Below are positions 22,353-59,755 of a DNA stretch of 64,000 nt, one piece after another. Numbering within the stretch: position 1 is the stretch's first letter; each line of letters starts with the position of its first letter. The position numbers were made by a program, and so were the translations under genes. The notes beneath the pieces are model-generated. The model was not told the origin of the DNA and did no database searches. It saw nothing but the letters and a program-made list of their open reading frames with translations. This stretch comes from an uncultured Ruminococcus sp. (GTDB taxonomy: Bacteria > Bacillota > Clostridia > Oscillospirales > Ruminococcaceae), in contig CADCFQ010000006.1 in assembly GCA_902800795.1 (NCBI GenBank), forward strand, positions 1-64,000. The letters are read 5' to 3'.

Positions 22353-23417
22353 ATGGAGAATATCATATCTTTGAAGGACATCATCGTGGAGTTCGACGGT
22401 GAAAGGGTACTCAAGCAGATAAGCCTTGATATAAAGGACAAGGAGTTCGTAACGCTTCTGGGCCCTTCGGGCTGCGGAAAGACAACGACCTTGCGTATAA
22501 TAGCAGGCTTTATCGAGCCTGACAGCGGCGACGTGATGTTTGAGGGGAAGAGGATAAACTCCCTGCCGCCCCACAAAAGAAACGTAAACACCGTGTTCCA
22601 GCGCTATGCGCTGTTTCCTCACCTGAATGTTTTCGAGAATATCGCCTTTGGCCTCCGGGTCAAAAAGGTGCCTGAAAAGGAGATAGTTTCAAGAGTGGGC
22701 GAGATGCTTGATCTTGTAAATCTGCGGGGCTTTGAGAAAAGGAGCGTCCAGCGCCTTTCGGGCGGTCAGCAGCAGAGGGTTGCTATCGCAAGGGCGCTGG
22801 TAAACAAGCCCAAGGTGCTGCTGCTGGACGAGCCCTTGGGAGCGCTTGACCTGAAGCTGAGAAAGGGGATGCAGACAGAGCTTCGCCGCATACAGAAGCA
22901 GCTGGAGCTGACCTTTGTCTATGTTACCCGCGACCAGGAAGAAGCCCTGACTATGAGCGACACTGTTGTCGTTATGAACAACGGCAGGATCCAGCAGATA
23001 GGTTCGCCTACGGACATTTACAACGAGCCTGTGAACGCCTTTGTGGCGGACTTTATAGGCGAGAGCAACATAATAAACGGCTGTATGCCGAGAGACTGCG
23101 TGGTGGAGTTTACCGGCAAGCAGTTCGACTGTGTGGACAAGGGCTTTTCGCCCAACGAGACAGTGGATGTTGTCATAAGGCCGGAGGACATAAAGGTCAT
23201 CCCGGCGAAGGACGCTAAGCTCACCGGTATAGTTGAGTCTGTTGTGTTCAAGGGTGTCCACTACGAGATGATAGTTGACGGCGTGGACTATAAATGGACC
23301 ATCCATTCCACCAAGGACGAGCCTGTGGGCTCCATGATAGGAATGGACGTTGACCCCTTTGATATACACATTATGAAAAAGACAAAGGAGGGTGCAGAAA
23401 AAGCTTATGAAGACTAG
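22353..23417 (+). CDS. potA: Spermidine/putrescine ABC transporter ATPase PotA, with Arg at the H-loop
   Basis: ATP-binding subunit of a polyamine importer, acting on the inner face with PotB and PotC. Walker [10 protein letters not shown] (~40-48), signature LSGGQQQR (~135-142) and Walker [12 protein letters not shown] are standard. The C-terminal TOBE-like domain (~240-354) fits PotA. The switch (H-loop) block reads YVTRDQEEA where the family has THDQEEA: the codon at 22928-22930 is CGC (Arg), not CAC (His). That His is normally needed for ATP hydrolysis. Length is normal and all neighbours are intact. Its stop overlaps potB. Confidence 0.92.
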
Positions 23418-24213
23418 GATAATGGCTGCGCCCTATCTTGTGTGGATGAGCGTGTTCATCGTTGTACCGCTCCTGATGGTCGCTTATTTTGCCGTGACCA
23501 CAGACAAGGGGACATTCACCGTCAGCTACCTTGCCGATGTGGGGCAGTATACTAATATTTTTGTGCGCTCTATCTGGCTGTCGGTAATAGCTACGGCTAT
23601 CTGTCTGGTGCTGGCTTACCCTCTGGCGTTCATGCTCTCGAGGATGAAAAAACACCACCAGGGCACAATGCTGATGATAATCATGCTGCCTATGTGGATG
23701 AACTTCCTGCTGAGGACATACGCCTGGATGACCCTTCTGGGAAACAACGGAATAATAAACTATCTGCTGGGGCTTGTCGGCCTTGGCCCTTACAAGCTTA
23801 TAAACACCTCCGGCGCTGTGGTGCTGGGGATGGTCTATAACTATCTGCCGTTCATGATACTGCCGCTGTATTCTGTGATGGAAAAGATAGACAGGAGCGT
23901 AATAGAGGCGGCAAGCGACCTTGGAAGCGATCCCAGGTCGGTGCTTCTGCGAGTTATAATCCCTCTTAGTCTGCCGGGAGTATACTCGGGTATCACTATG
24001 GTGTTTGTGCCCTGTATCTCCACCTTCATCATTTCAAGGATGCTGGGCGGCGGCTCGAACCTGCTTATAGGCGACCTTATCGAGATGCAGTTTCTCGGAA
24101 ACTCATACAACCCCCACCTCGGTGCTGCTATATCGCTGGTGCTTATGGCGATAGTCCTTGTCATCATGACCGTGATGAACCAGTTCAGCCCCGATGACCA
24201 GGTGCTGATATAG
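23407..24213 (+). CDS. potB: Spermidine/putrescine ABC transporter permease PotB
   Basis: Integral membrane permease with about six helices and the EAA-type cytoplasmic loop ([24 protein letters not shown], split here by family) that contacts PotA. ATG 23407 overlaps the end of potA by 11 bases. GTG 23392 is in frame but lies inside the AAAGGAGGG ribosome site. Order and length match potABCD operons. Confidence 0.9.
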
Positions 24214-24224
24214 GGGGTGCGGCT

Positions 24225-25025
24225 ATGAAGAGATTTGGAAAGATATATACGGCACTTATCCTTATGTTTCTCTATGTGCCGATATTCGTTCTTATAGTTT
24301 TCTCGTTCAACGAGACAAAGAGCAGGACGGTCTACACAGGCTTTACTCTCAGGTGGTATACAAAGCTGTTCCATAACAGCGTTATAATGGATTCGCTGGT
24401 AAACACCATAATCATCGCTGTCTGTGCGAGCATCCTTTCAACGGTGCTGGGGACCTTTGCGGCCATAGGCATCCACCGCATGAGAAAGGTGCCGAAGGCC
24501 CTTGTTATGAATGCGACAAACATCCCTATCATAAACCCCGAGATAGTAACGGGCGTTTCGCTGATGCTCCTGTTTGTGTTCTTTGCCGCAAGGATGAAAT
24601 TCGAGTTCGGCTTTATGACACTGCTGATAGCCCACATAACCTTTGATGTGCCTTACGTCATCCTGAACATAATGCCGAAGTTCAGACAGATGGACCCCCA
24701 CCTTTACGAGGCGGCTGTGGACCTCGGGTGCAGCCCTATGAGCGCCTTTCGCAAGGTGGTGCTGCCCGAGATAATGCCGGGTGTTGTCAGCGGCTTTCTA
24801 ATGGCGTTCACCTATTCGCTGGATGACTTTGTGGTCAGCTATTTCACCTCGGGCTCGACCTCTCAGACGCTGCCTATAACTATCTATTCGATGACCAGAC
24901 GAAAGGTGTCTCCCGAGATAAACGCTTTGTCGGCGCTTATCTTTGTGGTGGTGCTGGTAATGCTGATGATAAAGAATACGGTAGATAAGCGTTCGGCAAA
25001 AGCTAAGGGCGGTGAGCGTTTATGA
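24225..25025 (+). CDS. potC: Spermidine/putrescine ABC transporter permease PotC
   Basis: Second permease, 266 residues and about six helices. The EAA loop is LYEAAVDLGCSPMSAFRKVV. The conserved ending AFTYSLDDFVVSYF is typical of PotC. It begins 11 bases after potB, and its stop overlaps the potD start as ATGA. Confidence 0.92.
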   Translation: MKRFGKIYTALILMFLYVPIFVLIVFSFNETKSRTVYTGFTLRWYTKLFHNSVIMDSLVNTIIIAVCASILSTVLGTFAAIGIHRMRKVPKALVMNATNIPIINPEIVTGVSLMLLFVFFAARMKFEFGFMTLLIAHITFDVPYVILNIMPKFRQMDPHLYEAAVDLGCSPMSAFRKVVLPEIMPGVVSGFLMAFTYSLDDFVVSYFTSGSTSQTLPITIYSMTRRKVSPEINALSALIFVVVLVMLMIKNTVDKRSAKAKGGERL

Positions 25026-26302
25026 GAGGGACAAGACGCTTTGCGCTGTCGCTTCTGTGCGGAGCGCTTATGATAAACTGCTGTGGCTGTGCTTCTTCAA
25101 AAAAGAGCCGGACCGTCAAGGCTGGCTATGACAAGGACGATCCACAGACTGTTACGGTGGAGGACAAGGATTACTATACACGGTTCAAGGGACAGAACAA
25201 GTCTATAAACGTGTATAACTGGGGAGAATATGTGGCGGACGGCTCGGAGGAGGGTATGCTCGACACCAACAAGGAGTTTGAAGAGCTGACAGGCATAAAG
25301 ATAAACTATACGAACTTTGCGACAAACGAAGAGCTTTATGCAAAGCTCAAAGGCGGAGCCGCTTCATATGATGTTATCATCCCGTCCGACTATATGATAA
25401 GCAGGCTGATAAAAGAGGGGCTCCTTCGCAAGGTGGATATGCAGAACATCCCTAACAGCAAGTACATCATGGACAGCTTCAAAGGACTGGAATATGATCC
25501 CGAGGACGAGTATTCCGTGGCCTACACCTGGGGCACTGTGGGGATAATCTACAACAAGGACCTTGTTGGGATAGAGGAAGAGGATATCGACTGGGATATA
25601 CTGTGGAACGAGGATTATAAGGATCAGATACTGATGTTTGATAATCCCCGTGATGCCTTTGCCATAGCGGAGCTTATCCTCGGCTATTCGATAAACACCG
25701 AGGACCCTGATGAGCTAAGAGCAGCCGCAGCCAAGCTTACCGAGCAGAAGCCCCTTGTCCAGGGCTATGTCATGGACGAGATATTTGATAAAATGGGCGG
25801 CGGCGAGGCATTGCTTGCGCCATATTACGCCGGCGACGCTCTTATGATAATGGACGACAACGAGGATCTTACCTTTGCTGTGCCAAAGAGCGGCACCAAC
25901 CTTTTTGTGGATGCTATGTGCATACCGAGCTCCTCCCGGGAGCCGGAGCTTGCAGAGATGTATATAAACTTTATGTGCGAGCCGGATGTGGCCTATGCGA
26001 ACATCGACTACATCAAGTATTCTACCCCTCACAGTGCGGCCTATGAGATGCTGGACGACGAGGTGAAAAACAGCAAGATATCCTACCCGGATGACAAGTT
26101 CATAAAGGAGAAGACAACGGTCTTCACAAACCTTACTCCCGAAGCGGCAAAGCAGATGCAGGACCTGTGGACGGAGATGAAGTCCGCCGAGGACAAGAAT
26201 TCCAACCGCTGGTTCGTGCCGCTGTTTCTGATCATCTGTTTTGCTATCATCATCGTGGTGCTGATAAGGCGTCATATCAAAGCAAAGCGTGATATTTTCT
26301 GA
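25022..26302 (+). CDS. potD: Spermidine/putrescine-binding protein PotD with a C-terminal membrane anchor
   Basis: Extracellular polyamine-binding protein of the importer. The N-terminus has a signal with a Cys cluster (INCCGCASS, ~18-26) that may be lipid-modified, although the box is a poor match. The binding domain begins at INVYNWGEYV (~60) and contains the aromatic and acidic residues of PotD, such as YTWGTVGIIYNK. Unlike usual PotD proteins it ends in a membrane helix (FVPLFLIICFAIIIVVLI, ~400-417) followed by RRHIKAKR, so it may be fixed at both ends. At 426 residues it is ~70 longer than typical. Confidence 0.9.
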   Translation: MRGTRRFALSLLCGALMINCCGCASSKKSRTVKAGYDKDDPQTVTVEDKDYYTRFKGQNKSINVYNWGEYVADGSEEGMLDTNKEFEELTGIKINYTNFATNEELYAKLKGGAASYDVIIPSDYMISRLIKEGLLRKVDMQNIPNSKYIMDSFKGLEYDPEDEYSVAYTWGTVGIIYNKDLVGIEEEDIDWDILWNEDYKDQILMFDNPRDAFAIAELILGYSINTEDPDELRAAAAKLTEQKPLVQGYVMDEIFDKMGGGEALLAPYYAGDALMIMDDNEDLTFAVPKSGTNLFVDAMCIPSSSREPELAEMYINFMCEPDVAYANIDYIKYSTPHSAAYEMLDDEVKNSKISYPDDKFIKEKTTVFTNLTPEAAKQMQDLWTEMKSAEDKNSNRWFVPLFLIICFAIIIVVLIRRHIKAKRDIF

Positions 26303-26352: not shown

Positions 26353-27852
26353 TTAATAGCTGTACTTTGAAGTTATCCCGAGATACTCTTCAAGGCAGAG
26401 ACCGCTGTCATAAACCTTCTTTGCAAGATCCTTGCCCAGGTATCTTACGTGCCACGACTCATACTTGTAGCCTGTTATGTTCTGCTTGTTCTTGGGATAT
26501 CTCACGATAAAGCCGTACTTCCAGCAGTTGTTGGCTATCCACTTTGCTTCGGCGGTGTTGTCGAACCAGCTGGATGCGTAGTTTATATCGAACGCAAGTC
26601 CTGTCTGGTGTTCGCTGTGTCCGGGTCTTGCCGAATAGGTATCGGCGGCGGCCTTTCCGTCACGGGCACAGTAGTTATTATACAGCACTCTCTGTGTTTC
26701 ATAGGAGCGGAAGCCAGAGCATATCCAGAGGGAGTACCCGTCCCTTGCGGCGGCGTTTTTCATCTGAATGAATGCGTTGTAGGTCTCATCTGTCAGCTTT
26801 CCGGGGTTATAGGAAGCCGGCAGGGGATAGGTCTTGTTTGCGATAAGGATGCCGTTTACATAGGTGATGCCGTTTTTGACAACTATCGTGTTGCGGTCGG
26901 TCTTTACTGTCAGAATGTTCGACAGCCAGCCCAGGTGCTCTTTTTTATAGTCGTCCAGCTTGCAGGCACGGATGACGAACTTGTAGTTCGTGTTATAGTT
27001 GAGCCCTGTCACTGTGTAGGTGTTGGTAACAGGCTTGGCTATCCTGTGCCACTTGCCGTCGCTCATCATCTGGTATACGATGTAGTTTGTGCAGGCCAGC
27101 TTGTTCCACACAAGGGTTATAGAGGTGCCGTTCTTCTTTGAGGAGCGAAGTCCGGACACTGTGTCGGGACAGGTGGCTGTCCTCAGCTGGTCGGAATAAG
27201 CTCCGTAGAGATAGTTGCCGTTCGCAGTCCTGCGGTATGCCCTGACCACAAAATGCCTCCTCCATGAGGGCTCGAGCCCTGTAACATTATAGGTGTTCGC
27301 TGTGGTCTTGGCCACCTCTTTATAGCCGTCGGAGTATTTGAGATATACCGAGTATCCGTCACAGTTAGAGAGCTTGTCCCAGCAAAGCTTTATGGAACGC
27401 TCTTTTGTCTCTGCCGCATAAAGCCCGGTCACCTTTCCCAGCGACGGAGCCGAACGGGAGACCGTTGTCATATCGGACATATACCTTATCCCGTCTTCTT
27501 CTTTATAGGCCTTCACCCCGAACAGCGATGCTTCCCAGGGGATATCCGTAAGGGTACAGCTAAGATCGGAAGTCTCGGCTTTCTGCTGCCATTTGCTGCT
27601 CACGCAGGCAAACACCAGATATCCGTCAGCCCCTGTGCTTTTGCTCCAGCTAAGTTTTACCGGCTTGCCGCTTCGTGACGCTGTCACCTTGCTGACCTTG
27701 TTGACCGTCACATCCGGCGTTACCACCGGAGCCTGCGAGGAAGTATCCTCCCCCTGCGCATAGCAGACCGACGTCATACAGACAGCTGTCACCGATATTA
27801 GCGCCGCAGCTATCAGGCCTTTGAGTGTTTTCTTTATTATCCTTTTCTCCAT
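26353..27852 (-). CDS. Secreted D,D-carboxypeptidase (M15/VanY type) with three FnIII-like domains
   Basis: Zinc peptidase that trims D-Ala from wall peptides. Signal peptide residues 1-32, then three fibronectin type III-like domains (~50-140, ~145-235, ~237-330), each with a conserved W and YxVY or similar core. The M15B catalytic domain (~345-495) shows SGFRSYETQ, the zinc motif HQTGLAFDI and WHVRYLG. All zinc ligands are present. The start CAT 27850-27852 has GGAGGTGA ahead on the reverse strand. It lies alone between two terminator or promoter regions and may act with the dcw products in wall remodelling. Confidence 0.9.
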   Translation of the reverse strand: MEKRIIKKTLKGLIAAALISVTAVCMTSVCYAQGEDTSSQAPVVTPDVTVNKVSKVTASRSGKPVKLSWSKSTGADGYLVFACVSSKWQQKAETSDLSCTLTDIPWEASLFGVKAYKEEDGIRYMSDMTTVSRSAPSLGKVTGLYAAETKERSIKLCWDKLSNCDGYSVYLKYSDGYKEVAKTTANTYNVTGLEPSWRRHFVVRAYRRTANGNYLYGAYSDQLRTATCPDTVSGLRSSKKNGTSITLVWNKLACTNYIVYQMMSDGKWHRIAKPVTNTYTVTGLNYNTNYKFVIRACKLDDYKKEHLGWLSNILTVKTDRNTIVVKNGITYVNGILIANKTYPLPASYNPGKLTDETYNAFIQMKNAAARDGYSLWICSGFRSYETQRVLYNNYCARDGKAAADTYSARPGHSEHQTGLAFDINYASSWFDNTAEAKWIANNCWKYGFIVRYPKNKQNITGYKYESWHVRYLGKDLAKKVYDSGLCLEEYLGITSKYSY

Positions 27853-27888
27853 AAATATCACCTCCGTGATACATATCTTCCCAAAATG

Positions 27889-27917
27889 ATTATAACACAT
27901 TTTCAAACGTTTTGTAA
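27889..27917 (-). promoter_or_regulatory. Promoter of the M15 peptidase gene
   Basis: Reverse strand: TTACAA (27917-27912), 17-base spacer ending TGT, TATAAT (27894-27889). Confidence 0.65.
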
Positions 27918-28022
27918 AGTATTATTTCAAACAAACTTGACGCCGAAAACATGGTATTTTGAACAATGAAAAAGGGGATCCTGACTTGTTTTGGAAAAGT
28001 GTGCGGAGTATTGTTGGAACTC

Positions 28023-28051
28023 TTGACAAAACGGGCTTGTGGGTGTAAAAT
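28023..28051 (+). promoter_or_regulatory. Strong sigma-A promoter of the transcobalamin-like/ECF operon
   Basis: TTGACA (28023-28028), 17-base spacer, TAAAAT (28046-28051). Only ~37 bases separate the expected start point from the ATG at 28095, so there is no room for a cobalamin riboswitch in this leader. Confidence 0.85.
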
Positions 28052-28094
28052 ATAGTAAGTTGGTATGAACTGACGTGAAAGGAGTTAGAATATT

Positions 28095-29144
28095 ATGAAA
28101 AAATTATCAGCAATAGCAGCAGCTTTCGCTGTATCTCTGGCAGCAATACCTTTCTGCGTATTCGCAGAGAGCGCAGAAAGCTGTGATGTTTATGTTACCA
28201 TCACAAACGGCGAGCACAAGATAGTTATGGAAGAGGTCACAGTTACCGATACAGACGGTGACGGTGCACTTACAGTTTCAGATGCCCTTTACAATGCACA
28301 TGAGGAGTTTTATGACGGCGGTGCAGAAGCAGGCTATGCGACCGAGATGACCAAGTGGGGACTCTCGCTGACAAAGCTCTGGGGCGTTGTCAACGGCGGA
28401 AGCTATGGTTATTATTTAAATAACCAGATGTGCTGGAGCCTTACAGATACCGTAGCAGACGGAGATTATCTTTCGGCTTTTGTATATACCGACACCAAGA
28501 CCTTCTCTGATGCCTATTCATTCTTCGATGCTAATACCCTTGATGTTGCTTCGGGCAGCGATTTTGATGTGACACTCAAAAAGATGGTTTTCAATTCGGA
28601 CGGAAACGCTGTAGCTGTTCCTCTCGAGGGCGCTGTTATCACCATTGACGGCGAAGCTACCGATATAAAGACAGATGCAAACGGCAAGGCTACTATCCCC
28701 ACATCCAAGGCAGGCTCCTTCGTTATCAGCGCAGCTTCTGCAACTGAAACTCTGGTACCTCCTGCAATGATAGTAAATGTACTTGGCAGCAGCGATGAAT
28801 CAAGCATCGCTGATTCGAGCAGCCCCAGCAGCGAGAACGAGACAGATATCATCCCGATAGAGGAAGACTCCAGCGCTTCTGATTCACAGACAGACAGCAA
28901 GAATGATGACAGCAGCAAGAAGAGCGATTCCAAGAGCGACTCCTCAGCTTCCTCTTCTTCCGACAAGACCGCAGGCGCATCCAAGACCACAACGACCACA
29001 GGCGGCACAGGTGCGGCAGCAGCAGCTTCCGGCGCAGACGCAGAGGCAGCAGCAACAGGTTCCAGCTCTCTGGCACTTATGATCGCAGGTGTTGCTTCTC
29101 TGGCAGCGGCTGCAGTGGCTGCAAACAAAAAGAAGAATGGTTAA
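28095..29144 (+). CDS. Secreted, membrane-anchored protein with a DUF4430/transcobalamin beta-like domain
   Basis: A 349-residue surface protein. Signal peptide ~1-24. Residues ~29-135 resemble the DUF4430 domain (the beta domain of transcobalamin and intrinsic factor): a VSDALYNA helix, then WGVVNGGSYGYYLN and VADGDYLSAFVY. Next is a carboxypeptidase-regulatory-like sandwich (GAVITIDGEATDIKTDANGK, ~175-225), then a Ser/Asp/Lys linker (~228-320). A C-terminal membrane helix ends in NKKKNG. No LPxTG is seen. First gene of the operon; the next gene overlaps by 8 bases. A ligand-capture role is inferred from the partners; cobalamin is the leading candidate. Confidence 0.8.
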   Translation: MKKLSAIAAAFAVSLAAIPFCVFAESAESCDVYVTITNGEHKIVMEEVTVTDTDGDGALTVSDALYNAHEEFYDGGAEAGYATEMTKWGLSLTKLWGVVNGGSYGYYLNNQMCWSLTDTVADGDYLSAFVYTDTKTFSDAYSFFDANTLDVASGSDFDVTLKKMVFNSDGNAVAVPLEGAVITIDGEATDIKTDANGKATIPTSKAGSFVISAASATETLVPPAMIVNVLGSSDESSIADSSSPSSENETDIIPIEEDSSASDSQTDSKNDDSSKKSDSKSDSSASSSSDKTAGASKTTTTTGGTGAAAAASGADAEAAATGSSSLALMIAGVASLAAAAVAANKKKNG

Positions 29145-30759
29145 GCGTGCATCAGCTCTGCTTGGCGCCTTAACTGCAATAGCGATGACAGTCGGGAGCC
29201 TCGTGCTCCCGACTTTTGCTAGTGAGACTATCCCCGAGGTGATAGACAGTGCAGTAAGCCTGCGTGTCGGCTCGGCAGACAGGCAGAGTATACAGACCTT
29301 TGCGGATGAACAGCTGGCGCAGGGTATCGGCGGCGATGCCGAATGGTATGCGATGATATTCTCCCAGTATTACGATGTCGACCTCGGTGAGTATGCTAAG
29401 GCGCTTGAGGACTACGTTTCGGCTAACGAGACCCCGTCGGCGGTGACAAAGGAGAAGTTTGCGCTGGCTCTTATCTGTGCGGGAAAGGACAGCAGCTTTA
29501 TTACCGACACCCTCACGGATTGCGTTGGCGAGCAGGGAATAATGAGCTATGTGTTCGGGCTGCATATTTTAAACAACGGCTTTGAAGCCCCGGGAGTTTC
29601 GGCGCAGAGCGTGGCGGCAGAGATACTCTCGATGCAGCTTGCCGACGGAGGCTGGGCAGTTATGGGAGAGTTTGGCGACCCGGATGTCACCTCGATGACT
29701 CTTCAGGCGCTGGCGCCCCTTTGTGATGACGCTGATGTTTCGGCGGCCTGTGACAGAGCCCTTGGATACCTTAGCGGCGCCCAGCTCGAAAGCGGCGGCT
29801 ATATGAGCATGGGAGCCGAAAATTGCGAGAGCACGGCACAGGTGCTTTGTGCGCTGTCCTCTCTCGGGATAGACTGTGAGAACGATGAGCGCTTTATCAA
29901 GGGCGGCAAGACCGTTATAGATGCGGTGATGGAATACCGCCTTGAGGACGGGTCTTTCTCTCACATAAAGGGCGAGGGGATGAACGAGACCGCTACCTTT
30001 GAGGTGGCTTATGCCCTTGTGGGCTATGAGCGGATGAAAAACGGCAGCACGCCGTTTTATGTGTTCGACTCCTGCCAGGAGTCACCTGTGCCAAAACCGG
30101 CAAAAGAAGATGTGTCATCAGCTGTAAGCACATCTTCATCCGTCAGCGGGAGCAAGGCAGACAGCGCAACCGATAAGGGTGTGGGCTATAAGGGCATCGC
30201 CATAGGTGCTGTTATTGCGGCGGCTCTTATCATTTGCGGTGTGCTCACGGCCCTTGGCAAAAGGAGTATCAAGAACTACGTTTTCATAGCCATTGTCGCA
30301 GCGGCGCTCTGCTTAGCGATAGGGTTTACGGATATAAAGAGCGAAAAGGAATACTACTCTGATACGTCGTCCGCATCAGCCAAAGTCACGGGAGAAGTGA
30401 CGATGACTATCCGCTGTGACACGGTGGCAGGAGAGAACTCCTGTGCGCCTGATGACGGCGTTATACTAAAAGACACAAAGTTTGATCTTCACGAGGGCGA
30501 CACCGCCTATGATCTGCTTGTGACGGCGGCGAAGAAGAACAACATCCGCCTGGACACAAAGGGCGGCGCCAGCGTTTATGTCTCCGGGATAAACGGGCTC
30601 TACGAATTTGATTTCGGCGAGCTCTCGGGCTGGGTATACCATGTCAACGGCATAAGCGCATCGGTGGGCAGCTCGGCTTATGAGCTTGAAGACGGCGACA
30701 GAGTCGAGTGGCTTTATACAAGAAATATCGAGAGGGATCTTTCCAGCGAACAGAGGTGA
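29137..30759 (+). CDS. Transcobalamin-like surface protein: alpha-toroid plus DUF4430 domain
   Basis: A 540-residue protein whose domain set matches eukaryotic cobalamin carriers. Signal ~1-30. A helical toroid of prenyltransferase/terpene-cyclase-like repeats follows (~35-290; phrases LADGGWAVMGEFGDPDVTS and LESGGYMSMGAENCEST). A Ser-rich linker leads to two membrane helices (~348-366 and ~373-390). A DUF4430 domain ends the protein (~435-530; DLLVTAAKKNN, GWVYHVNG, LEDGDRVEWLY). Topology puts both globular domains outside. The ATG at 29137 overlaps the previous gene. With the ECF genes that follow, I infer capture and hand-over of a corrinoid; this is untested. Confidence 0.82.
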   Translation: MVKRASALLGALTAIAMTVGSLVLPTFASETIPEVIDSAVSLRVGSADRQSIQTFADEQLAQGIGGDAEWYAMIFSQYYDVDLGEYAKALEDYVSANETPSAVTKEKFALALICAGKDSSFITDTLTDCVGEQGIMSYVFGLHILNNGFEAPGVSAQSVAAEILSMQLADGGWAVMGEFGDPDVTSMTLQALAPLCDDADVSAACDRALGYLSGAQLESGGYMSMGAENCESTAQVLCALSSLGIDCENDERFIKGGKTVIDAVMEYRLEDGSFSHIKGEGMNETATFEVAYALVGYERMKNGSTPFYVFDSCQESPVPKPAKEDVSSAVSTSSSVSGSKADSATDKGVGYKGIAIGAVIAAALIICGVLTALGKRSIKNYVFIAIVAAALCLAIGFTDIKSEKEYYSDTSSASAKVTGEVTMTIRCDTVAGENSCAPDDGVILKDTKFDLHEGDTAYDLLVTAAKKNNIRLDTKGGASVYVSGINGLYEFDFGELSGWVYHVNGISASVGSSAYELEDGDRVEWLYTRNIERDLSSEQR

Positions 30760-30760
30760 G

Positions 30761-31642
30761 ATGATGAGACGGATAAGGGATATGCACCCGCTTTCGGTGA
30801 CGGTGTTTTTTGTGTGCGTCACCATGCTGGCCATGAGCGTTTCTCACCCTGCCGTAACAGCGGCTTCGCTGGTGCTGTCAATGCTGCTGTTCACAGTTTT
30901 AAAAGGCGCTAAAAGCATAAGAACGCATATCCTCATCCTGATCTTCTTTATCATCTTCACTCTTATAAACCCGGTGATCTCACACAAGGGCTCGACTGTC
31001 CTGTTCATGGTCAATGACACGCCCGTTACTCTGGAATCCCTGCTTTACGGTCTCAATGCCGCAGCAGGACTGTGTTCGGTGTTTTACTGGGTGTTCTCGT
31101 TCTCGGCTGTCATGGACAGCGAAAGGATGCTTTGCGTGTTCGGGCTCATATCGCCCAGAGCCGCCCTGGTGGCGTCCTGCTCGATAAGGTATCTGACTCT
31201 GATAAAGGCCCAGTACCGCAGAACGAAGCTTTCAATGAGGGCTATAGGCCTTTACACCGACGGTAACATAATTGACCTTATCAGAGGGAATATGAGGGTA
31301 TTCTCCTCGGTGATAGGCTGGGCGCTGGAAAACGGCATAGCCACCGCCGACAGTATGGCGGCAAGAGGCTGCGGCAGCACAAAGCGAACCGCTTTTTCTG
31401 TGAAAAAGTTCCGCTTAGGAGACGGCATTTTTATGGCGGCTGCGCTGATGCTTTCAGCGCTGTGTGTCGCCTGTTCGGCGCTGGGGAGCCTTAAGATAAC
31501 ATTCTATCCCAAGACCGTTCTGGCTCCTGCCGATGCGGCAGGCTTTATCGGGATAGCATCATTCATCCTGCTGGCGGTGATGCCGTCGGCGATAGAAACG
31601 GGGGTTAAGCTGAAATGGCGGCGATCGATGTCAGAGGTCTGA
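30761..31642 (+). CDS. ECF transporter transmembrane component EcfT
   Basis: Energy-coupling membrane subunit (CbiQ/EcfT family) of about 293 residues that links the ATPases to the substrate-binding S component. Several membrane helices are followed by the coupling helices. The second coupling motif is intact (MAARGCGS, ~199-206), while the first reads RAIG (~159) instead of ARG. Either ATG 30761 or ATG 30764 may be used; AGAGG (30752-30756) precedes both. The stop lies inside the next gene (28-base overlap). Confidence 0.88.
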   Translation: MMRRIRDMHPLSVTVFFVCVTMLAMSVSHPAVTAASLVLSMLLFTVLKGAKSIRTHILILIFFIIFTLINPVISHKGSTVLFMVNDTPVTLESLLYGLNAAAGLCSVFYWVFSFSAVMDSERMLCVFGLISPRAALVASCSIRYLTLIKAQYRRTKLSMRAIGLYTDGNIIDLIRGNMRVFSSVIGWALENGIATADSMAARGCGSTKRTAFSVKKFRLGDGIFMAAALMLSALCVACSALGSLKITFYPKTVLAPADAAGFIGIASFILLAVMPSAIETGVKLKWRRSMSEV

Positions 31643-33234
31643 CCTTTAAATATCCGCTTTGCGAAAAGGCGGCGATAGAGGATATAAGCTTCACTGCTGC
31701 CGAGGGCGAGACGATGCTTGTCTGCGGCGAGGGCGGCAGCGGAAAGTCAACTCTTCTGCGCTGTTTAAAACGTGAGCTTATCCCGAACGGCGAGCTTTCG
31801 GGAAAAGTCCTGATAGCAGGAAAGGACAGAGACACCCTGGAGCCCGGAGAGAGCGCTTGTCTTGTGGGCTTTGTGGGTCAGGACTGCGAGCAGCAGATGG
31901 TGACCGACAAGGTGTGGCACGAGCTTGCTTTCGGGCCTGAAAGCATAGGCCTTGACAAGAACACGATAGCGGTTAGGGTCGCAGAAACGGCGGCATACTT
32001 CGGTATCTACGACAAGCTCTCGAAGCCCACGGCTTCGCTTTCCGGCGGAGAAAAACAGCTTCTGACCCTTGCGTCAGTTATGATAATGCAGCCCCGTGTG
32101 CTGCTCCTGGACGAGCCCTGTTCACAGCTGGATCCGCTGGCGTCAAGACAGCTTGCCGAGACAGTGGCAAGGCTCTGCCGTGAGCAGGCGGTAACGGTGA
32201 TGATAGCCGAGCACAGGTTCGAGCACATCCTGCCCTTTGCCGACAGGGTGATGAGGCTGGAAAAGGGAAGGCTGTCTTTCTGTGAGAACAGATCAGAGGC
32301 GCTTAAAAGAGCAGCTGAGGACGAGGCTCTTCTTCGGGCTATGCCGGCACCCGTGAGGATTTTTTCCGGCCTTTCGGGAGAGGGCGAGTGCCCCTGTGAT
32401 ACCGCAGGAGCAAGGCGCTTTGTGAGAGAGACTTTTGACAACAGCGTGAGAAGCCTCGAAATTGATGAAAAGGCACTTTCCGCAAATAAAGCGCTGGAGC
32501 TTAAAAACGTGACTTTCCGCTATGAGCGTGAGGGCAAAGACATTATCGACGGGCTTGACCTTGAGGTGAGCGAGGGCGAGTGTTTAGCGCTCCTTGGCGC
32601 TAACGGTTCGGGCAAATCCACGGCGCTGGGGCTTATCTCGGGAGCGCTTAAAGCCCAGACGGGAAGCATACGCATATTCGGCAAAAAGCTAAAGGATTAT
32701 AAGAACAATTCCCTTTATCAGGGCACGCTTTCGATGCTGCCCCAGGATGTGACGGCGCTTTTTACGCAAAACAGCGTAAAAGAGGAGCTTGAAGCTTCTC
32801 ATATAACAGAGATACCCTTCGGGCTGGAAAAGCTCTTGGAGCGCCACCCTTATGATCTTTCCGGCGGCGAGAGACAGCTTCTTGCTCTTGCAAAGGTTCT
32901 GGCAAGAGAGCCGAAGATCCTTTTGCTGGACGAGCCCACAAAGAGCCTTGATGCCGCAAGCACAGACCGGCTTTGTGAGATCATACGGAGTCTGAAGCAA
33001 AAGGGTATGACCGTTCTTACGGTCAGCCACGACACGGAGTTCTGCGCCGAGGTGTCGGACAGGTGTGCGGTGTTTTTCTCGGGCAGGCTCAGCGAGCCCG
33101 CTGCGACAATCAAGGTACTGGGCGAGAACCGTTACTTCACAACAGCTTCGAGCCTTATAACAAGAGACCGCTATGACGGTGCGCTCACCGTGGAGGACAC
33201 GGTGAGGATATGTAACATGAACAGGAGACTGTGA
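31615..33234 (+). CDS. ECF transporter duplicated ATPase (EcfA-EcfA' fusion)
   Basis: Two ABC ATPase domains in one 539-residue chain. Domain 1: Walker A GEGGSGKST (~37-45), LSGGEKQ (~142), Walker B VLLLDEP (~161). Domain 2: Walker A GANGSGKST (~328), LSGGERQ (~415), Walker B ILLLDEP (~434). Both sites keep catalytic Glu and H-loop His (AEHRF, SHDTE). Predicted cobalamin-type ECF systems of Firmicutes are known for such duplicated ATPases, which supports the substrate inference. It overlaps ecfT. Confidence 0.93.
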   Translation: MAAIDVRGLTFKYPLCEKAAIEDISFTAAEGETMLVCGEGGSGKSTLLRCLKRELIPNGELSGKVLIAGKDRDTLEPGESACLVGFVGQDCEQQMVTDKVWHELAFGPESIGLDKNTIAVRVAETAAYFGIYDKLSKPTASLSGGEKQLLTLASVMIMQPRVLLLDEPCSQLDPLASRQLAETVARLCREQAVTVMIAEHRFEHILPFADRVMRLEKGRLSFCENRSEALKRAAEDEALLRAMPAPVRIFSGLSGEGECPCDTAGARRFVRETFDNSVRSLEIDEKALSANKALELKNVTFRYEREGKDIIDGLDLEVSEGECLALLGANGSGKSTALGLISGALKAQTGSIRIFGKKLKDYKNNSLYQGTLSMLPQDVTALFTQNSVKEELEASHITEIPFGLEKLLERHPYDLSGGERQLLALAKVLAREPKILLLDEPTKSLDAASTDRLCEIIRSLKQKGMTVLTVSHDTEFCAEVSDRCAVFFSGRLSEPAATIKVLGENRYFTTASSLITRDRYDGALTVEDTVRICNMNRRL

Positions 33235-33267
33235 CCCTGAAAAAGACCGGAGGAAAGGAGACAGCCT

Positions 33268-33951
33268 ATGGCGGCAACACGACTTCGCTTCAAAGAAGTG
33301 CTGAAATATATAGCCGTGCTGGCGTTCATACCTGCCATTGCGGCGGCGGGGTCGCTGGTGTTCGATGAGCAGCGCCACATTCTTGTGTCGCTGGCTGTGG
33401 CGGCTGCGGCTCTCGGGGTGTTTTTCCTGGGCTATGAGAAAAAACAGGTCGGTACTCGCCGTCTTGTTGTTACAGCGATAATGACATCCCTTTGCCTGTT
33501 CGGGCGGTTTATCCCGGTCATAAAGCCGGTGGCGGCGCTGGTCATCCTCACTGGGGTCTATCTTGGCTGTGAAACGGGCTTTCTCACCGGTGCGCTGACA
33601 GCGCTCATCTCAAACTTCTGGTTCGGCCAGGGCCCCTGGACAGCTTTTATGATGTTAGCACTGGGTCTTGTGGGCTTTTTCTCGGGAGCGCTCTCAAAGG
33701 TGCTTATAAAAAACAGACCCCTCCTGATAGTCTTCGGAGCGGTCTGCGGAGCAGCCTATTCGATGATAATGGATGTCTGGACGGTGCTGTGGTATGCAAA
33801 GGGCTTCAGCCCGAAGCTTTATCTTGCGGCTGTGGGTACCAGCATCCCATATCTTCTGAGCTACTGTGTTTCAAATGTTGTGTTCCTCGTTATCCTTTCA
33901 AAGCCCGTTGGCGATAAGCTTATGCGTGTGAAGATAAAATACGGAGTGTAA
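33268..33951 (+). CDS. ECF transporter substrate-binding S component (possible cobalamin type)
   Basis: A 227-residue membrane protein with about seven helices. The block SLCLFGRFIPVIKPVAALVI and the SNFWFGQGPWTAFMMLALGLVGF stretch belong to an S-component family which, as I recall, includes the predicted cobalamin transporter CbrT. It binds the vitamin in the membrane and docks on EcfT. It closes a complete T-A-S set behind two surface proteins. AGGAAAGGAG (33250-33259) lies ahead of the ATG. The substrate assignment is inference. Confidence 0.82.
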   Translation: MAATRLRFKEVLKYIAVLAFIPAIAAAGSLVFDEQRHILVSLAVAAAALGVFFLGYEKKQVGTRRLVVTAIMTSLCLFGRFIPVIKPVAALVILTGVYLGCETGFLTGALTALISNFWFGQGPWTAFMMLALGLVGFFSGALSKVLIKNRPLLIVFGAVCGAAYSMIMDVWTVLWYAKGFSPKLYLAAVGTSIPYLLSYCVSNVVFLVILSKPVGDKLMRVKIKYGV

Positions 33952-33967
33952 GTAATGAATAATGAAG

Positions 33968-34083
33968 AATGAACAGTGAATAATGAATAATTATGGTATC
34001 GTCCTGCGGACGATGATATTTTAAATCATCGCCGAAGGCGATACCTTTTTTATTTATTCTTTCTCCAGTATTCACTGTTCATT
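33968..34083. repeat. 116-bp foldback (MITE-like) element with 15-bp terminal inverted repeats
   Basis: AATGAACAGTGAATA (33968-33982) and its perfect complement (34069-34083) bound the element. Inside, GGTATCG...CGATACC arms enclose two small GC hairpins (TCCTGCGGA, GCCGAAGGC) and a central ATATTTTAAAT. The GATACC arm is followed by TTTTTTATTT, so it can also end ecfS transcription. Its unusual codon-free, AT-rich flanks (AATGAATAATGAA) are typical of short palindromic elements in Oscillospiraceae. Confidence 0.85.
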
Positions 34084-43199: not shown

Positions 43200-43799
43200 A
43201 TGGAAGTCTGGGATGTTTTTTCGCCGTTTTATGATGCGGCGGAAACGATATATAACAAGGCCGTTTACCAAAACACCGGCAAGAGAGTGGCCGCCGAGAT
43301 AGACGAGGGCGACACAGTTCTCGAGTGCGCCTGCGGCACAGGCTCTATCACAAGGTTTATAGCTCCGAAGTGCAGGCTCCTTGTGGCAACGGATATGTCG
43401 AAGGGTATGCTTTGCGAAGCGCAGAAAAACTGTGACAACCTTGATAACGTCAGGTTCAGGTATGCCGACATAATGCACATAAACTGCCGTGACGAGCGCT
43501 TTGACAAGGTGGTGGCAGGAAACGTTATCCACCTGCTGGACGACTCCTACGGAGCGGTCAGAGAGCTTCTGCGTGTATGCAAAACAGGCGGCAAGGTCAT
43601 TATCCCCACCTATGTGAATGCCGAAAAATCTTCCGGCAGCGTGGCTGCTGATGCGCTAAGGGTCGTTGGTGTGGATTTCAAAAAGGAATTTACCTATGAG
43701 AGCTACAAACAGTTCTTTGCTGACGGCGGATTTGAAGCCGGGTTTGATATAGTAAACGGCAGGATGCCGTGTGCGATAGCGATAATAGAAAAGAAATAA
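43200..43799 (+). CDS. Class I SAM-dependent methyltransferase
   Basis: A 199-residue UbiE/small-molecule type methyltransferase. Motif I is VLECACGTGSITRF (~39-52), followed by the acidic end of strand 2 (VATDMSKGML) and motif III around GNVIHLLDD. Substrate unknown. It begins two bases after the esterase stop, with AGGAGGTAAG overlapping that stop. Confidence 0.88.
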   Translation: MEVWDVFSPFYDAAETIYNKAVYQNTGKRVAAEIDEGDTVLECACGTGSITRFIAPKCRLLVATDMSKGMLCEAQKNCDNLDNVRFRYADIMHINCRDERFDKVVAGNVIHLLDDSYGAVRELLRVCKTGGKVIIPTYVNAEKSSGSVAADALRVVGVDFKKEFTYESYKQFFADGGFEAGFDIVNGRMPCAIAIIEKK

Positions 43800-43828
43800 A
43801 GCCTTATGGCAGATTGGGGTCAGAAAAA

Positions 43829-46800
43829 ATGAATGATATCCTGCGTATCGAAGCGGTCTTTGCAAAAACCTTCGGGCTTGGCGATGCTGTGAGCCATGTG
43901 CCCGTGATAAGGGACATGACTGTCACAAACACAAGTGCTGAGGAGTGTACGGGTCTGGAGCTCAGGCTTCATTTTGACCCGGCCTTTGCTCAGGATGTGA
44001 CCCTGCCCGTTACGGCGGTTGGGGCCGGCGAGACCCTGAGAGTGACTCCCGTGGAGCTTTGCATAGATGCGATGATGCTCTCAAAGCTCACCGAGAACAC
44101 CCCGGCAAGGCTTTTTGCAAGCGTTTGGAGGGGAGAGGAGGCTCTTTGCCGCCAGCAGGAGGAGATAGACCTTATGCCTGCAAACCTCTGGTGCGGCACC
44201 GGGAAGCTCCCCGAGACTGTCTGCACCTTTGTAACTCCGGATGCGGCGAGCGTAAAGCAGATACTTGACAGCGCCTCCGCCCTTATGCAGCAGTGGACGG
44301 GAGATTCACGCTTTCTCGGATATCAGACCCAGGATATAAATAACGTAAAGCAGCAGGCAGGAGCTATCTTTGAAGCCATTAAGGCTATGAAGCCCGGCTA
44401 TGTCAATCCGCCGGTGAGCTTTGCCCAGCCGGTGGCTGTGCGTTCGGCGGATGTTCTGTGTGCCGAGGGCAAGGGCACCTGTCTTGACCTTTCGCTGCTC
44501 TATGCTTCCTGTCTCGAAGCGGCAGGCCTTGCTCCGCTGGTGATCTTTTTGGAGGGTCACGTTATAGCCGGCGTGTGGCTGGAGGAGCAGACCTTTGCAG
44601 ACTGCGTGAATGACGATGAGACCGCTATACAGAAGCGCCTTGCCGACCAGGCAGAGGAGATACTCTGTGTTGAGTGTACCGATATGGTGGGCGGCAGGAG
44701 CATAGCCTTTGACACCAGCGTCGAGAACGGAAAAAGACATTTCTTCTCGAATGACAGGTTCGATGTCTGCGTGGATGTAAGGCGTTCGAGAGCCGGCGGT
44801 ATCGGTTCGGGAGCCGCAGCCGCAAAGGAGGGGATGAAGATAACCGTCTCCGACGCTCTTTCGGCAGGTGCGCCGAAGGCTATCGGAATGGAAAAGATAG
44901 GCGTTGCAAAAGGCGAGAGGGAAATGGGACGTGAAAAGGTGTGGGAGCGAAAGCTTCTCGATCTCACACTGCGCAACTCCCTTCTTAATTTCAGGGCGAC
45001 CAAGAACACCCTGCGCCTTGTCTGCTCGGACCTTGCAAAGCTTGAAGACACAGTGTGGAACGAGAAGGACCTTCTTGTGTGCGAGGCTCCGTCGGGGCTC
45101 ATCGCCTCCGCAGACAGCAGGGACATCGAAGCGGTCGTTGACAGCGGCCTTGTACAAAACATCAGTGAGCAGGAGCTTGCAAGCGGAAGGGTAAGGAGCT
45201 TTGCGTCCCCGTCAGAGCTTGACCGCACCCTGAAGAGCATTTACCGCTCGGCCAAGACCTCTCTTGAAGACAACGGCGCAAACACGCTGTTCCTGGCTCT
45301 CGGTTTTCTCAAATGGTATGAATCGGACGTATCTCAGAAAGCGAGATATGCGCCCTTGATACTTGTGCCTGTAGACCTTGTGAAGAGCATAAGGAACCAC
45401 GGCTATGTGATAAGGACCCGTCAGGAAGACCCCCAGGTCAACATCACTTTACTTGAATATTTAAGGCAGGATCACGGCATAGACATAACAGGCCTTGATC
45501 CTCTGCCCCAGGACGAGAACGGAGTGGACACAGCGCTTGTGTTCAATACCGTGCGTCAGGCTATAATGGACAAGAGCCGCTGGAACATCCTCGATCTTGC
45601 ATATCTGGGACTGTTCTCCTTCGGCCAGTTCGTTATGTGGAACGACCTCAGATCCCGTCTTGATGAGCTGATGGAGAACCATGTGGTGCGCAGCCTTATC
45701 GAGGCGAAGCTGATGTGGCAGCCAAAGGAGCAGACCGTAACTGCCGAAAACAGCGACCGCACTGTGTCTATGGCGGATGTTGCCGTTCCGATGATAGCAG
45801 ACTCTTCCCAGCTGTCCGCTGTGGTCATGGCTTCAAAGGGCGAGAGCTTTGTGCTCCACGGACCTCCCGGAACCGGCAAGAGCCAGACTATCACAAATAT
45901 GATCGCAAATGCGCTCTATCAGGGCAAGTCGGTGCTTTTTGCGGCCGAGAAGATGGCGGCGCTGAGCGTTGTTAAAAAGAGGCTCGCAGGGATAGGGCTT
46001 GACCCGTTCTGCCTGGAGCTTCACTCGAACAAGACAAACAAGAGCGTTGTGCTCTCACAGCTGGAAAAGGCTCTCGAGGTAGGCAGGATAAAGCCTGCCG
46101 CAGACTATGAGCAGACGGCTGCGAAGTGTGAGGAGCTCAAGGGTGAGCTCAACCATATAATGGACGCTCTCCACGACCCGAGAAAATGCGGCGTGTCCCT
46201 TTATGATTCTATCGGCATATTCCGTGAGAACCTTGGATTCAAGGACGTGCTGACTCTTGACGATGCCTTTCTGGCATCTCTTGATGCCGCCGGCCTTGAA
46301 AAGGCGCTGGAGCTTACGGACAAGTATGCTTCCGCCGCAGAGGAGATAGGCGTTTTTGTCGGGCATCCCTATAAGGCTTATAACGGTCTCAATTACTCTA
46401 TCGAGCTTCGTGACAGCTTTGCTAAGGATTGCCGTGACACGGTGGCTCTTGCTGCCGCTGCTGCAAACGGTCTCTCTCTGCTGGGACAGACGATGAATGT
46501 GACAGGCACCGACAGAAAGACCGCCGAGGGTCTTTGCGGTGTTGCCGAGGCATCCGCTGTGGGCGGTGCGGCTCTTGAAGGGCTGATACTTAATGCAGAT
46601 ATCGAAAGCCTTTGCGCAGCCCTGGAGGGGCTTTGCCGGAAAGGCGAGGAGCTCAGCTCTCAGAAGGCTCAGGTGCTGGCTGATTATGAAAAGGGCATCT
46701 TTGACTATGATTGTCAGACCGCCAGAAGAGCATATAAGGAGGCAAGCGCCAAGTGGTTCCTGGGTCGTTATTTCGGCGTCAAGAAATGCGTGAGCGCTCT

Positions 46801-58321: not shown

Positions 58322-59755
58322 ATGTATGAGCAGGATCTGATAACACTTGTTAAAAAAATACAGAATACAAAAGCTGAATTTCAAACTGTTGAAGTTAAGC
58401 GTTGCCAAAGCGGAATAACCGAAAAACTATACGACACCTTATCCAGCTTCTCGAATCAAGATGACGGTGGAGTTATTGTTTTTGGTTTATATGAAAAAAA
58501 CGGATTTGAGATCACAGGCGTGAATGACGTTCAGCTTCTTCAAAAGCGAGTAACAGAACAATGCGAGCAGATGGAGCCTGTCGTTCGTGCAGTTTTCACG
58601 GTTGTGGAGATCGACGGTAAAAATATAGTTTCCGCAGAGATACCGCCTGTTGATATAACAAAACGTCCCTGCTTTTACAAAGGGAAAGGACGCATCAAAG
58701 GCTCATATATCAGGGTCGGTGAAGCAGATCAGCCAATGAGTGAGTATGAAGTTTACAGCTATGAAGCATACCGTGAAAAATACAAGGATGAAATACGGGA
58801 AGTTGACCGCGCTGAAATGTCCTCACTTGACGAAAACAAGCTTGCAGATTACCTGCTGAAGCTGAAGCTCAACAAGAAAAACCTCGCAAGACTTGACGAT
58901 GATAAAATTCTTGAACTTATGAGTATGCAAAAGAATGGGCATCCCACTCTTGCCGCTGAACTTCTTTTTGGATTGTATCCCCAGGCTTATTTTCCGCAGC
59001 TCGGAATAATTGCCGTTTCCGTTCCCGGAACGGAAGTCGGGGAGACCGACTCCGACGGATCACGCTTCATTGACAACCAACGGATAGAAGGAACTTTGCC
59101 GGAGATACTTGATGAAGCGCTGCAGTTTGTCAGAAAAAATACAAAGACCAGAACTATTATTGATCCGGATACCGGCAAGCGGCGTGACCGCTCCGATTAC
59201 CCGACGAACTCCGTCCGCGAAGCAATATTAAATGCACTTGTTCACCGTGATTACAGCATTCATACCGAAGGTATGCCGATTCAGCTGAAGATTTTTTCAG
59301 ACAGACTTGAGCTATCCAACCCGGGAGGACTGTACGGAAGGCTGACAATAAACGAGCTTGGAAAAGTCCAGCCGGATACAAGAAACCCTGTGATCGCAAA
59401 TGCACTTGAAGTTCTGAACATTACAGAAAACCGCTATTCCGGGATACCGACTATACGCAGAGAATTAAAGGAATACGGGCTTCCCGAACCGGAATTCACT
59501 GATTTTCGCGGGGAATTCAAAGTCGTTTTTCGTTTGCAGGACGGCAGCCCAAAAGCTGGCGCAGATGATCAGACAGCAAGAATACTTGACTTCTGCCGTA
59601 CCCCTCGGTCACGCAAAGAGCTTGCTGCATTTATCGGGCTTTCCTCTGTTAATTATGCGATCAACAAATATATCCGACCTTTGATCGACAGTGGAAAAAT
59701 AGGTTTGACCGAACCGAAGAAGTCAAGTCCGAATCAAAAATATTATACTTTATAA
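58322..59755 (+). CDS. Schlafen AlbA_2 / GHKL-ATPase transcriptional regulator-like protein
   Basis: A 477-residue protein of the group often labelled ATP-binding or RecG-related transcriptional regulator. The N-terminal AlbA_2 domain (~15-130) has ESQ-like VEVKRC and the LSSFSNQDDGGVIVFGL block. A HATPase_c_4-like domain (~260-400) has VREAILNALVHRDYS (Asn motif), RLELSNPGGL and ENRYSGIPTIRREL. A C-terminal winged helix (~420-477) likely binds DNA. Such genes are common in mobile and defence islands. The phased repeats over its promoter suggest that it controls itself. Base composition is lower in GC than the left of the window. Confidence 0.87.
   Translation: MYEQDLITLVKKIQNTKAEFQTVEVKRCQSGITEKLYDTLSSFSNQDDGGVIVFGLYEKNGFEITGVNDVQLLQKRVTEQCEQMEPVVRAVFTVVEIDGKNIVSAEIPPVDITKRPCFYKGKGRIKGSYIRVGEADQPMSEYEVYSYEAYREKYKDEIREVDRAEMSSLDENKLADYLLKLKLNKKNLARLDDDKILELMSMQKNGHPTLAAELLFGLYPQAYFPQLGIIAVSVPGTEVGETDSDGSRFIDNQRIEGTLPEILDEALQFVRKNTKTRTIIDPDTGKRRDRSDYPTNSVREAILNALVHRDYSIHTEGMPIQLKIFSDRLELSNPGGLYGRLTINELGKVQPDTRNPVIANALEVLNITENRYSGIPTIRRELKEYGLPEPEFTDFRGEFKVVFRLQDGSPKAGADDQTARILDFCRTPRSRKELAAFIGLSSVNYAINKYIRPLIDSGKIGLTEPKKSSPNQKYYTL

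Follow-up and report, generated by a model that had tools for sequence, protein, structure and literature searches.

Organization of the operon

The window analysed here is a 64,000-nucleotide stretch of DNA from an uncultured Ruminococcus sp. (contig CADCFQ010000006.1, positions 1 to 64,000), in which open reading frame and domain scans delineate five head-to-tail genes on the + strand, at positions 28095-33951. These genes, labelled in order P1, P2, T (ecfT), double ATPase and S, lie at the place and on the strand proposed in the first-pass annotation of this DNA, and combine two putative surface proteins with an energy-coupling factor (ECF) transporter. The features of the region are the following:

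28023..28051, + strand: promoter-like site TTGACA-17-TAAAAT, from a consensus scan only (5 such sites in the window, against a mean of 4.5 in shuffled sequences)
28095..29144, + strand: P1, 349 amino acids, predicted surface protein with a transcobalamin-beta-like domain, an immunoglobulin (Ig)-like domain, a Ser-rich stalk and a C-terminal helix (low model confidence)
28176..28508, + strand: beta-type domain of P1, resembling haptocorrin and transcobalamin beta domains
29137..30759, + strand: P2, 540 amino acids, with toroid, helical hairpin and DUF4430
29221..30048, + strand: alpha-toroid of P2 (residues 29-304 of the model)
30187..30327, + strand: helical hairpin of P2 (351-397; helices 351-372 and 378-397 in the predicted secondary structure)
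30496..30720, + strand: DUF4430 domain of P2 (transcobalamin beta-type; E 2.7e-17)
30761..31642, + strand: ecfT, 293 amino acids, divergent ECF T component (CbiQ family, E 0.0022, below cut-off)
31615..33234, + strand: single gene encoding two fused ECF ATPase domains, 539 amino acids (two ABC_tran stretches; ECF_ATPase_1, E 6.8e-85, below the cut-off of the model)
33268..33951, + strand: S component, CbrT-like, 227 amino acids (family profile against 6fnp_A)
33997..34042, + strand: two terminator-like hairpins after S (stems 33997-34015 and 34028-34042; 11 such sites in the window, against 6.6 in shuffled sequences)

There is an overlap of 8 bases between P1 and P2 and of 28 bases between ecfT and the double ATPase, and a gap of 33 bases separates the double ATPase from S. 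The first-pass annotation had ecfT overlapping P2, which does not hold with a start at 30761, since a gap of 1 base then separates the two genes. Its duplicated ecfA is present as two ATPase domains, but these belong to one fused gene. A T component, two ATPases and an S component, i.e., the parts of an ECF module, occur together in the operon, with a divergent T. Chance does not account for this arrangement: among 40 homologous loci from the same family, six have all five genes in exactly this order, and the others have parts of it. From the promoter-like site to the ATG of P1, the leader would span less than 45 bases, which leaves no room for a cobalamin aptamer (about 190 positions).

P2 combines a predicted toroid with a DUF4430 domain

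The P2 protein belongs to the DUF4430 family (PF14478), with a score of 63.4 bits against a curated cut-off of 23.8 in the Pfam scan; we take this family to carry a transcobalamin-like label in InterPro. The alpha-toroid is supported by the predicted model and by two Pfam matches, both under cut-off (SQHop_cyclase_C, E 3.9e-4; Prenyltrans, E 0.0058), and one of these two toroid models exceeds its cut-off in the relatives P0005, P0022 and P0102. The pairing of an alpha-toroid with DUF4430, which the first-pass annotation had read from the sequence, is borne out by these results. The model of P2 (mean predicted local distance difference test score, pLDDT, 83.2; predicted template modelling score, pTM, 0.61) displays the toroid, a low-confidence linker, the hairpin and then a beta domain at about residues 412-530, so that an alpha6/alpha6 toroid and a beta domain are predicted within one chain. 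The hairpin may correspond to two membrane helices leaving both flanking domains outside, as judged from the sequence.

A Foldseek comparison of the P2 model with the PDB returned only transcobalamin, intrinsic factor or haptocorrin among the first 15 matches, and a second aligner superposed intrinsic factor across both domains (346 of 378 residues). No animal B12 carrier was reached by sequence, either from the P2 profile (PDB chains, E<=1) or from the DUF4430 profile (E<=5). Because P2 has no detectable sequence relationship to the solved animal carriers, we do not file it as a member of the transcobalamin family, only as a protein that, according to its model, would work like one. The nearest named relative of P2 that we found is encoded by a Ruminococcus sp. 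metagenome-assembled genome (80% identity; locus L003).

P1 is a putative stalked surface protein

The predicted domains of P1 are a transcobalamin-beta-like domain (residues ~28-138), an Ig-like domain (~139-232), a Ser-rich stalk and a C-terminal helix (329-348). The mean pLDDT of the model is 75.9, with low confidence for the C-terminal helix, which may be a membrane anchor. Among aligned P1 proteins, 20 of 52 exhibit a P-x-T-G motif within their last 60 residues, presumably a sortase signal, and the P1 of the window lacks it.

The DUF4430-like domain that had been proposed for P1 stands by predicted fold, but not by Pfam, in which P1 gives nothing against DUF4430 at E<=1; without such a match to PF14478, we do not file P1 under this family. 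Profile comparison with DUF4430 was likewise not significant, and the P1 profile found nothing in the PDB at E<=1. For the domain 28-138, the first 11 matches of the second aligner are haptocorrin or transcobalamin, among them a beta domain on its own in complex with cyanocobalamin (5np4), and the match of rank 12 is 3u7z, a Ruminococcus gnavus protein labelled as putative metal-binding. The first-pass annotation had made its cobalamin reading depend on predicted folds that match transcobalamin: P2 fits, and the beta domain of P1 fits according to the second aligner but not to a plain Foldseek search, which lacks transcobalamin among its top 50 matches.

The S component is related to CbrT

The best PDB match of the S-family profile is CbrT of Lactobacillus delbrueckii (6fnp_A, E 3.8e-21), with positions 55-227 of the profile aligned to residues 4-177 of 6fnp_A, i.e., over the membrane core. 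The resemblance of S to a predicted cobalamin type, suggested earlier, is supported in that CbrT is its nearest relative among solved structures. The second match is 4hzu_S (E 2.7e-4), followed, up to E 10, by four antibody chains only. ECF-CbrT (6FNP) is a proven transporter of cobalamin and cobinamide, according to the accessible text of PMC5997447. In Pfam, the top match of S, under cut-off, is ECF-ribofla_trS (E 8.1e-6); with the folate and riboflavin S models, the S proteins of five relatives score weakly and the S protein of the window gives nothing at E<=0.01.

The host genome contains a second, canonical EcfT beside EcfA on another contig (C17). Since a canonical T/EcfA pair is thus encoded separately, the T component and the double ATPase of the operon look dedicated.

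Homologous loci and cobalamin riboswitches

We surveyed 148 genomes of the same family and a class-wide sample of 291 genomes. Matches to S were found in 43 of the 148 family genomes, from which 40 neighbourhoods were extracted, leaving out the window itself (G000), one locus at a contig edge (G059) and one weak match (G077); several of the 40 loci are cut by contig ends. The S list of 45 match rows was reduced to 42 by dropping one weak match each from G069 and G077 (E ~1e-4), as well as a G116 row that was the second part of a single match. Alignments were built from 60 of 120 listed matches (A1), 51 of 120 (A2) and 21 of 120 plus 13 loci (A3). Of the 40 loci, 30 encode DUF4430, 24 a toroid and eight P1; the six loci with exactly the gene order of the window are L036-L040 and L046.

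Rfam scans detected a cobalamin riboswitch in 20 of the 40 loci (19 genera by label), each time upstream and on the strand of the operon, whereas a uniform spread would predict about 0.3 RF00174 (calculated from the 150 riboswitches listed, with genomes averaging 2.3 Mb). Nineteen of them are RF00174 and one is AdoCbl-II (L037, 36.8 bits against a cut-off of 36.5). In L062 and L070, the first gene, when read at its longest, overlaps the riboswitch. Another riboswitch, 1.7 kb before the L045 stretch on the same strand (G094), was left out of this count, and none was found in L003-L005. The first-pass annotation had pointed to linkage with another vitamin as evidence against cobalamin: no riboswitch for another vitamin (FMN, TPP or THF) was found by Rfam in the 40 loci, in which the only structured RNAs besides the cobalamin types are tRNAs and one T-box (L069), located on the opposite strand. 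A degenerate riboswitch in the leader of the window operon was also considered and rejected, a permissive scan of 27700-28300 having given unrelated weak matches only and the promoter-like site leaving a short leader.

The association extends to DUF4430 itself, which occurs in 73 of the 148 family genomes. At least 36 of 90 DUF4430 matches in these genomes have an RF00174 on the same strand no more than 8 kb upstream, whereas controls with flipped strand or on the wrong side gave 0 of 90 each among the matches listed. In the same genomes, at least 14 of 52 DUF4430 matches located away from S have a cobalamin riboswitch at a distance of no more than 700 bases; many of these matches are in short open frames. 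These counts compare 90 listed DUF4430 rows with 150 listed riboswitch rows and are lower bounds. Class-wide, 116 of the 291 genomes have matches to the P2 profile, in its toroid or its DUF4430 part, and at least 9 of 150 listed rows (6 of 82 listed genomes) are within 8 kb downstream of one of 39 listed riboswitch rows from the same genomes, with 0 and 0 in the controls; this is again a lower bound. From this one-sided clustering, which includes matches away from S, we conclude that DUF4430 tends to be controlled by cobalamin whether or not this transporter is present.

Several loci deviate from the architecture of the window. In L074 (3374-5254), S and DUF4430 form a single frame of 626 amino acids. 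In L041 and L042, P2 is adjacent to S without T or ATPase in the stretch examined (the contig is short for L041 but not for L042), which suggests that these loci use a shared ECF module. In L057, L058, L069 and L073, a beta-propeller-like protein (PQQ_2) is encoded beside DUF4430, without toroid, behind a cobalamin riboswitch; by analogy, the propeller in place of the toroid could be a BtuG-like exchange of partners. Scans of 20 neighbouring proteins, chosen by eye, showed that CbiD and a ChlI/VWA chelatase-like protein are encoded next in the operon of L073, and a CbiA/CobB/AAA_26-type P-loop protein in that of L068; a homocysteine methyltransferase is encoded near the operon in L050 and a corrinoid protein in L051.

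Vitamin B12 in the host cell

The host genome, which is 97% complete, contains one match to the B12-binding domain (PF02310), in a frame of 808 amino acids with MetH domains; over the 620 amino acids available, the match to the metH model has an E of 2.6e-119, without reaching the full-length cut-off of the model. Neither CbiC nor RF00174 was found in this genome. A FecCD-type permease was not found either, hence no BtuC, and a BtuCDF transporter is not recognized. DUF4430 occurs once, in P2. Judged by the searches for CbiC, FecCD, RF00174 and DUF4430, with other importer types outside the search, the operon is the visible B12 route of this cell. Nearly all genomes of the family (131 of 148) have a B12 enzyme, so that co-occurrence with such enzymes is consistent with a role in B12 uptake and not discriminating.

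A putative corrinoid capture and import system

We consider it likely, with a probability of about 0.8, that the operon encodes a Gram-positive system for the capture and import of B12 (corrinoids), in which the transcobalamin-like proteins P1 and P2 feed a CbrT-like ECF transporter. This reading draws on the gene order, DUF4430, the fold matches of the models, the kinship between S and CbrT, the riboswitches at half of the homologous operons, and the lack of CbiC and FecCD matches in the host genome. It agrees with the cobalamin reading of the first-pass annotation, which the carrier folds ranking first for P2 support. Fold, family and regulation stand here at the level of prediction and comparison; from these we infer the ligand and the anchoring of the surface proteins. 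P1, raised on its stalk, would catch the corrinoid with its single beta-type domain. P2, which its hairpin would anchor in the membrane, would enclose the corrinoid between its toroid and its DUF4430 domain, in the manner of transcobalamin, and then release it to S. The T component and the double ATPase would drive S to release the corrinoid inside the cell, where the imported B12 may serve MetH.

Several points weaken this interpretation. The DUF4430-like domain of P1 is recognizable by fold alone; the toroid of P2, taken alone, scores higher with terpene cyclases than with the carriers in the second aligner; the operon of the window has no cobalamin riboswitch; and the hand-over from P1 and P2 to S is itself inferred.

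The alternative that survives best, and which we consider unlikely, concerns the nature of the ligand: in place of cobalamin, the system could take up a corrinoid precursor or one specific cobamide (cobinamide, cobyrinate or pseudocobalamin), with carriers tuned to that form. The transport of cobinamide by CbrT (PMC5997447, accessible text) fits this possibility, and the cbiD and chelatase-like genes in L073, together with the CbiA/CobB/AAA_26-type protein in L068, indicate that some hosts may process corrinoids further. In the host of the window, however, a complete cobamide is the simplest need, given a genome without CbiC (CobU, CobS and CobT being outside the search) and with MetH as its one B12-binding protein.

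It is less probable still that P1 and P2 are receptors or adhesins stripping B12 from other carriers or binding the wall, with S taking up free B12 unaided. The Ig-like domain and stalk of P1 resemble those of surface adhesins, P1 is seen in 8 of the 40 loci, DUF4430 is missing from 10 and the toroid from 16, and CbrT with its ECF module alone rescued growth of an Escherichia coli strain lacking btuF, btuC and metE (PMC5997447, accessible text). Against this explanation, at least 14 DUF4430 matches away from S are close to a cobalamin riboswitch, S is fused to DUF4430 in L074, and P2 stays with S in L041 and L042, where T and ATPase are absent. Finally, uptake of another vitamin of riboflavin or folate type, with surface proteins that are unrelated wall proteins, was raised by the weak family matches of S and of its five relatives and is rejected as very improbable, since the S profile leads to CbrT, with 4hzu_S as sole further transporter chain up to E 10, and the only vitamin riboswitches in the 40 loci are of cobalamin type.

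If the operon is a B12 capture and import system, it offers a concrete and testable route for B12 uptake by Gram-positive gut and rumen bacteria, which is poorly known. P1 and P2, which resemble the B12 proteins of the animal host itself, might compete with them for the vitamin. Such a function would help to assign a role to DUF4430 and bears on the origin of animal B12 carriers. We tentatively propose, at somewhat less than even odds, that modular B12 catchers (DUF4430 with a toroid or a beta-propeller, feeding CbrT-type transporters) form a broad class in Clostridia and that the animal carriers descend from them or share an ancestor with them.

Neighbouring genes

Just upstream of the operon, the window encodes an ATP-binding cassette (ABC) ATPase with a TOBE domain, two permeases and a solute-binding protein (22353-26302), an importer that we take to be of the spermidine/putrescine type. 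A VanY D-Ala-D-Ala carboxypeptidase with a fibronectin type III domain (26353-27906) is divergent from the operon. Further downstream, a protein of 1918 amino acids (43769-49525) with DUF4011, helicase and MTES_1575 nuclease domains strongly matches the PADLOC candidate defence family PDC-S37, and a Schlafen/AlbA_2 and HATPase_c_4 protein (58322-59755) also matches PADLOC pAgo-type models, over part of the length of these models.

Comparison with known systems

The closest characterized system is ECF-CbrT of L. delbrueckii, an ECF importer with a related S component. It was predicted partly from the lack of BtuCDF in its hosts (PMC5997447, accessible text), and FecCD was likewise not found in the present genome. 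According to the same text, CbrT differs in that a single general ECF module serves it and other S components alike, and in its nrdJ-cbrS-cbrT-pduO cluster, whereas the operon described here has its own T and fused double ATPase and encodes two carrier-like proteins. CbrTUV/CbrUVT is named as a B12 transporter beside BtuBCDF for gut genomes (PMC6593275), and CbrV, CbrU and CbrT are called an ECF transporter (PMC6722938); CbrUVT is probably the same kind of transporter core as that of the operon, but the accessible parts of both papers name no carrier proteins with it. Known B12 transporters are found in nearly half of auxotroph variants, and the identification of B12 transport in many gut genomes is presented as an open problem (PMC6593275, accessible part).

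Of earlier connections between DUF4430 and ECF transport of cobalamin, the closest that we found is, in the accessible text of PMC9963975, a DUF4430 protein of Lacticaseibacillus rhamnosus (LGG_02295/LRHMDP2_2713), encoded near rtpR and labelled as an additional lipoprotein component of a putative cobalamin ECF transporter. That text describes it as of unknown function and makes no toroid or transcobalamin comparison. This lipoprotein may be the CbrS of the CbrT cluster. DUF4430 has also been found in TCN proteins (PMC4350170, accessible part).

With mammalian transcobalamin, intrinsic factor and haptocorrin, P2 shares the predicted combination of toroid and beta domain. It differs from them in having no sequence-level match to PDB chains, in the hairpin between its domains and in adjoining a transporter; moreover, toroid and DUF4430 are encoded by separate genes in many bacterial relatives. 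BtuG and BtuH of Bacteroides are also surface B12 binders serving a B12 transporter, and BtuG is a beta-propeller (PMC6977713, accessible part), which recalls the four loci with a propeller-like protein described above, but the Bacteroides proteins belong to Gram-negative systems with BtuB and have other folds. A btuH homologue has been noted near an ECF-like cobamide transporter in Eubacterium siraeum (PMC8941943, accessible part).

In the literature searched, with preprints and most subscription papers outside the search, we found no description of the intrinsic-factor arrangement of toroid and DUF4430, of P1 or of the propeller exchange, nor of transcobalamin-like proteins beside a bacterial ECF transporter. 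The CbrT-type transporter core and the tie of DUF4430 to it are known already; the new element is the toroid-bearing, intrinsic-factor-like form beside an ECF transporter.

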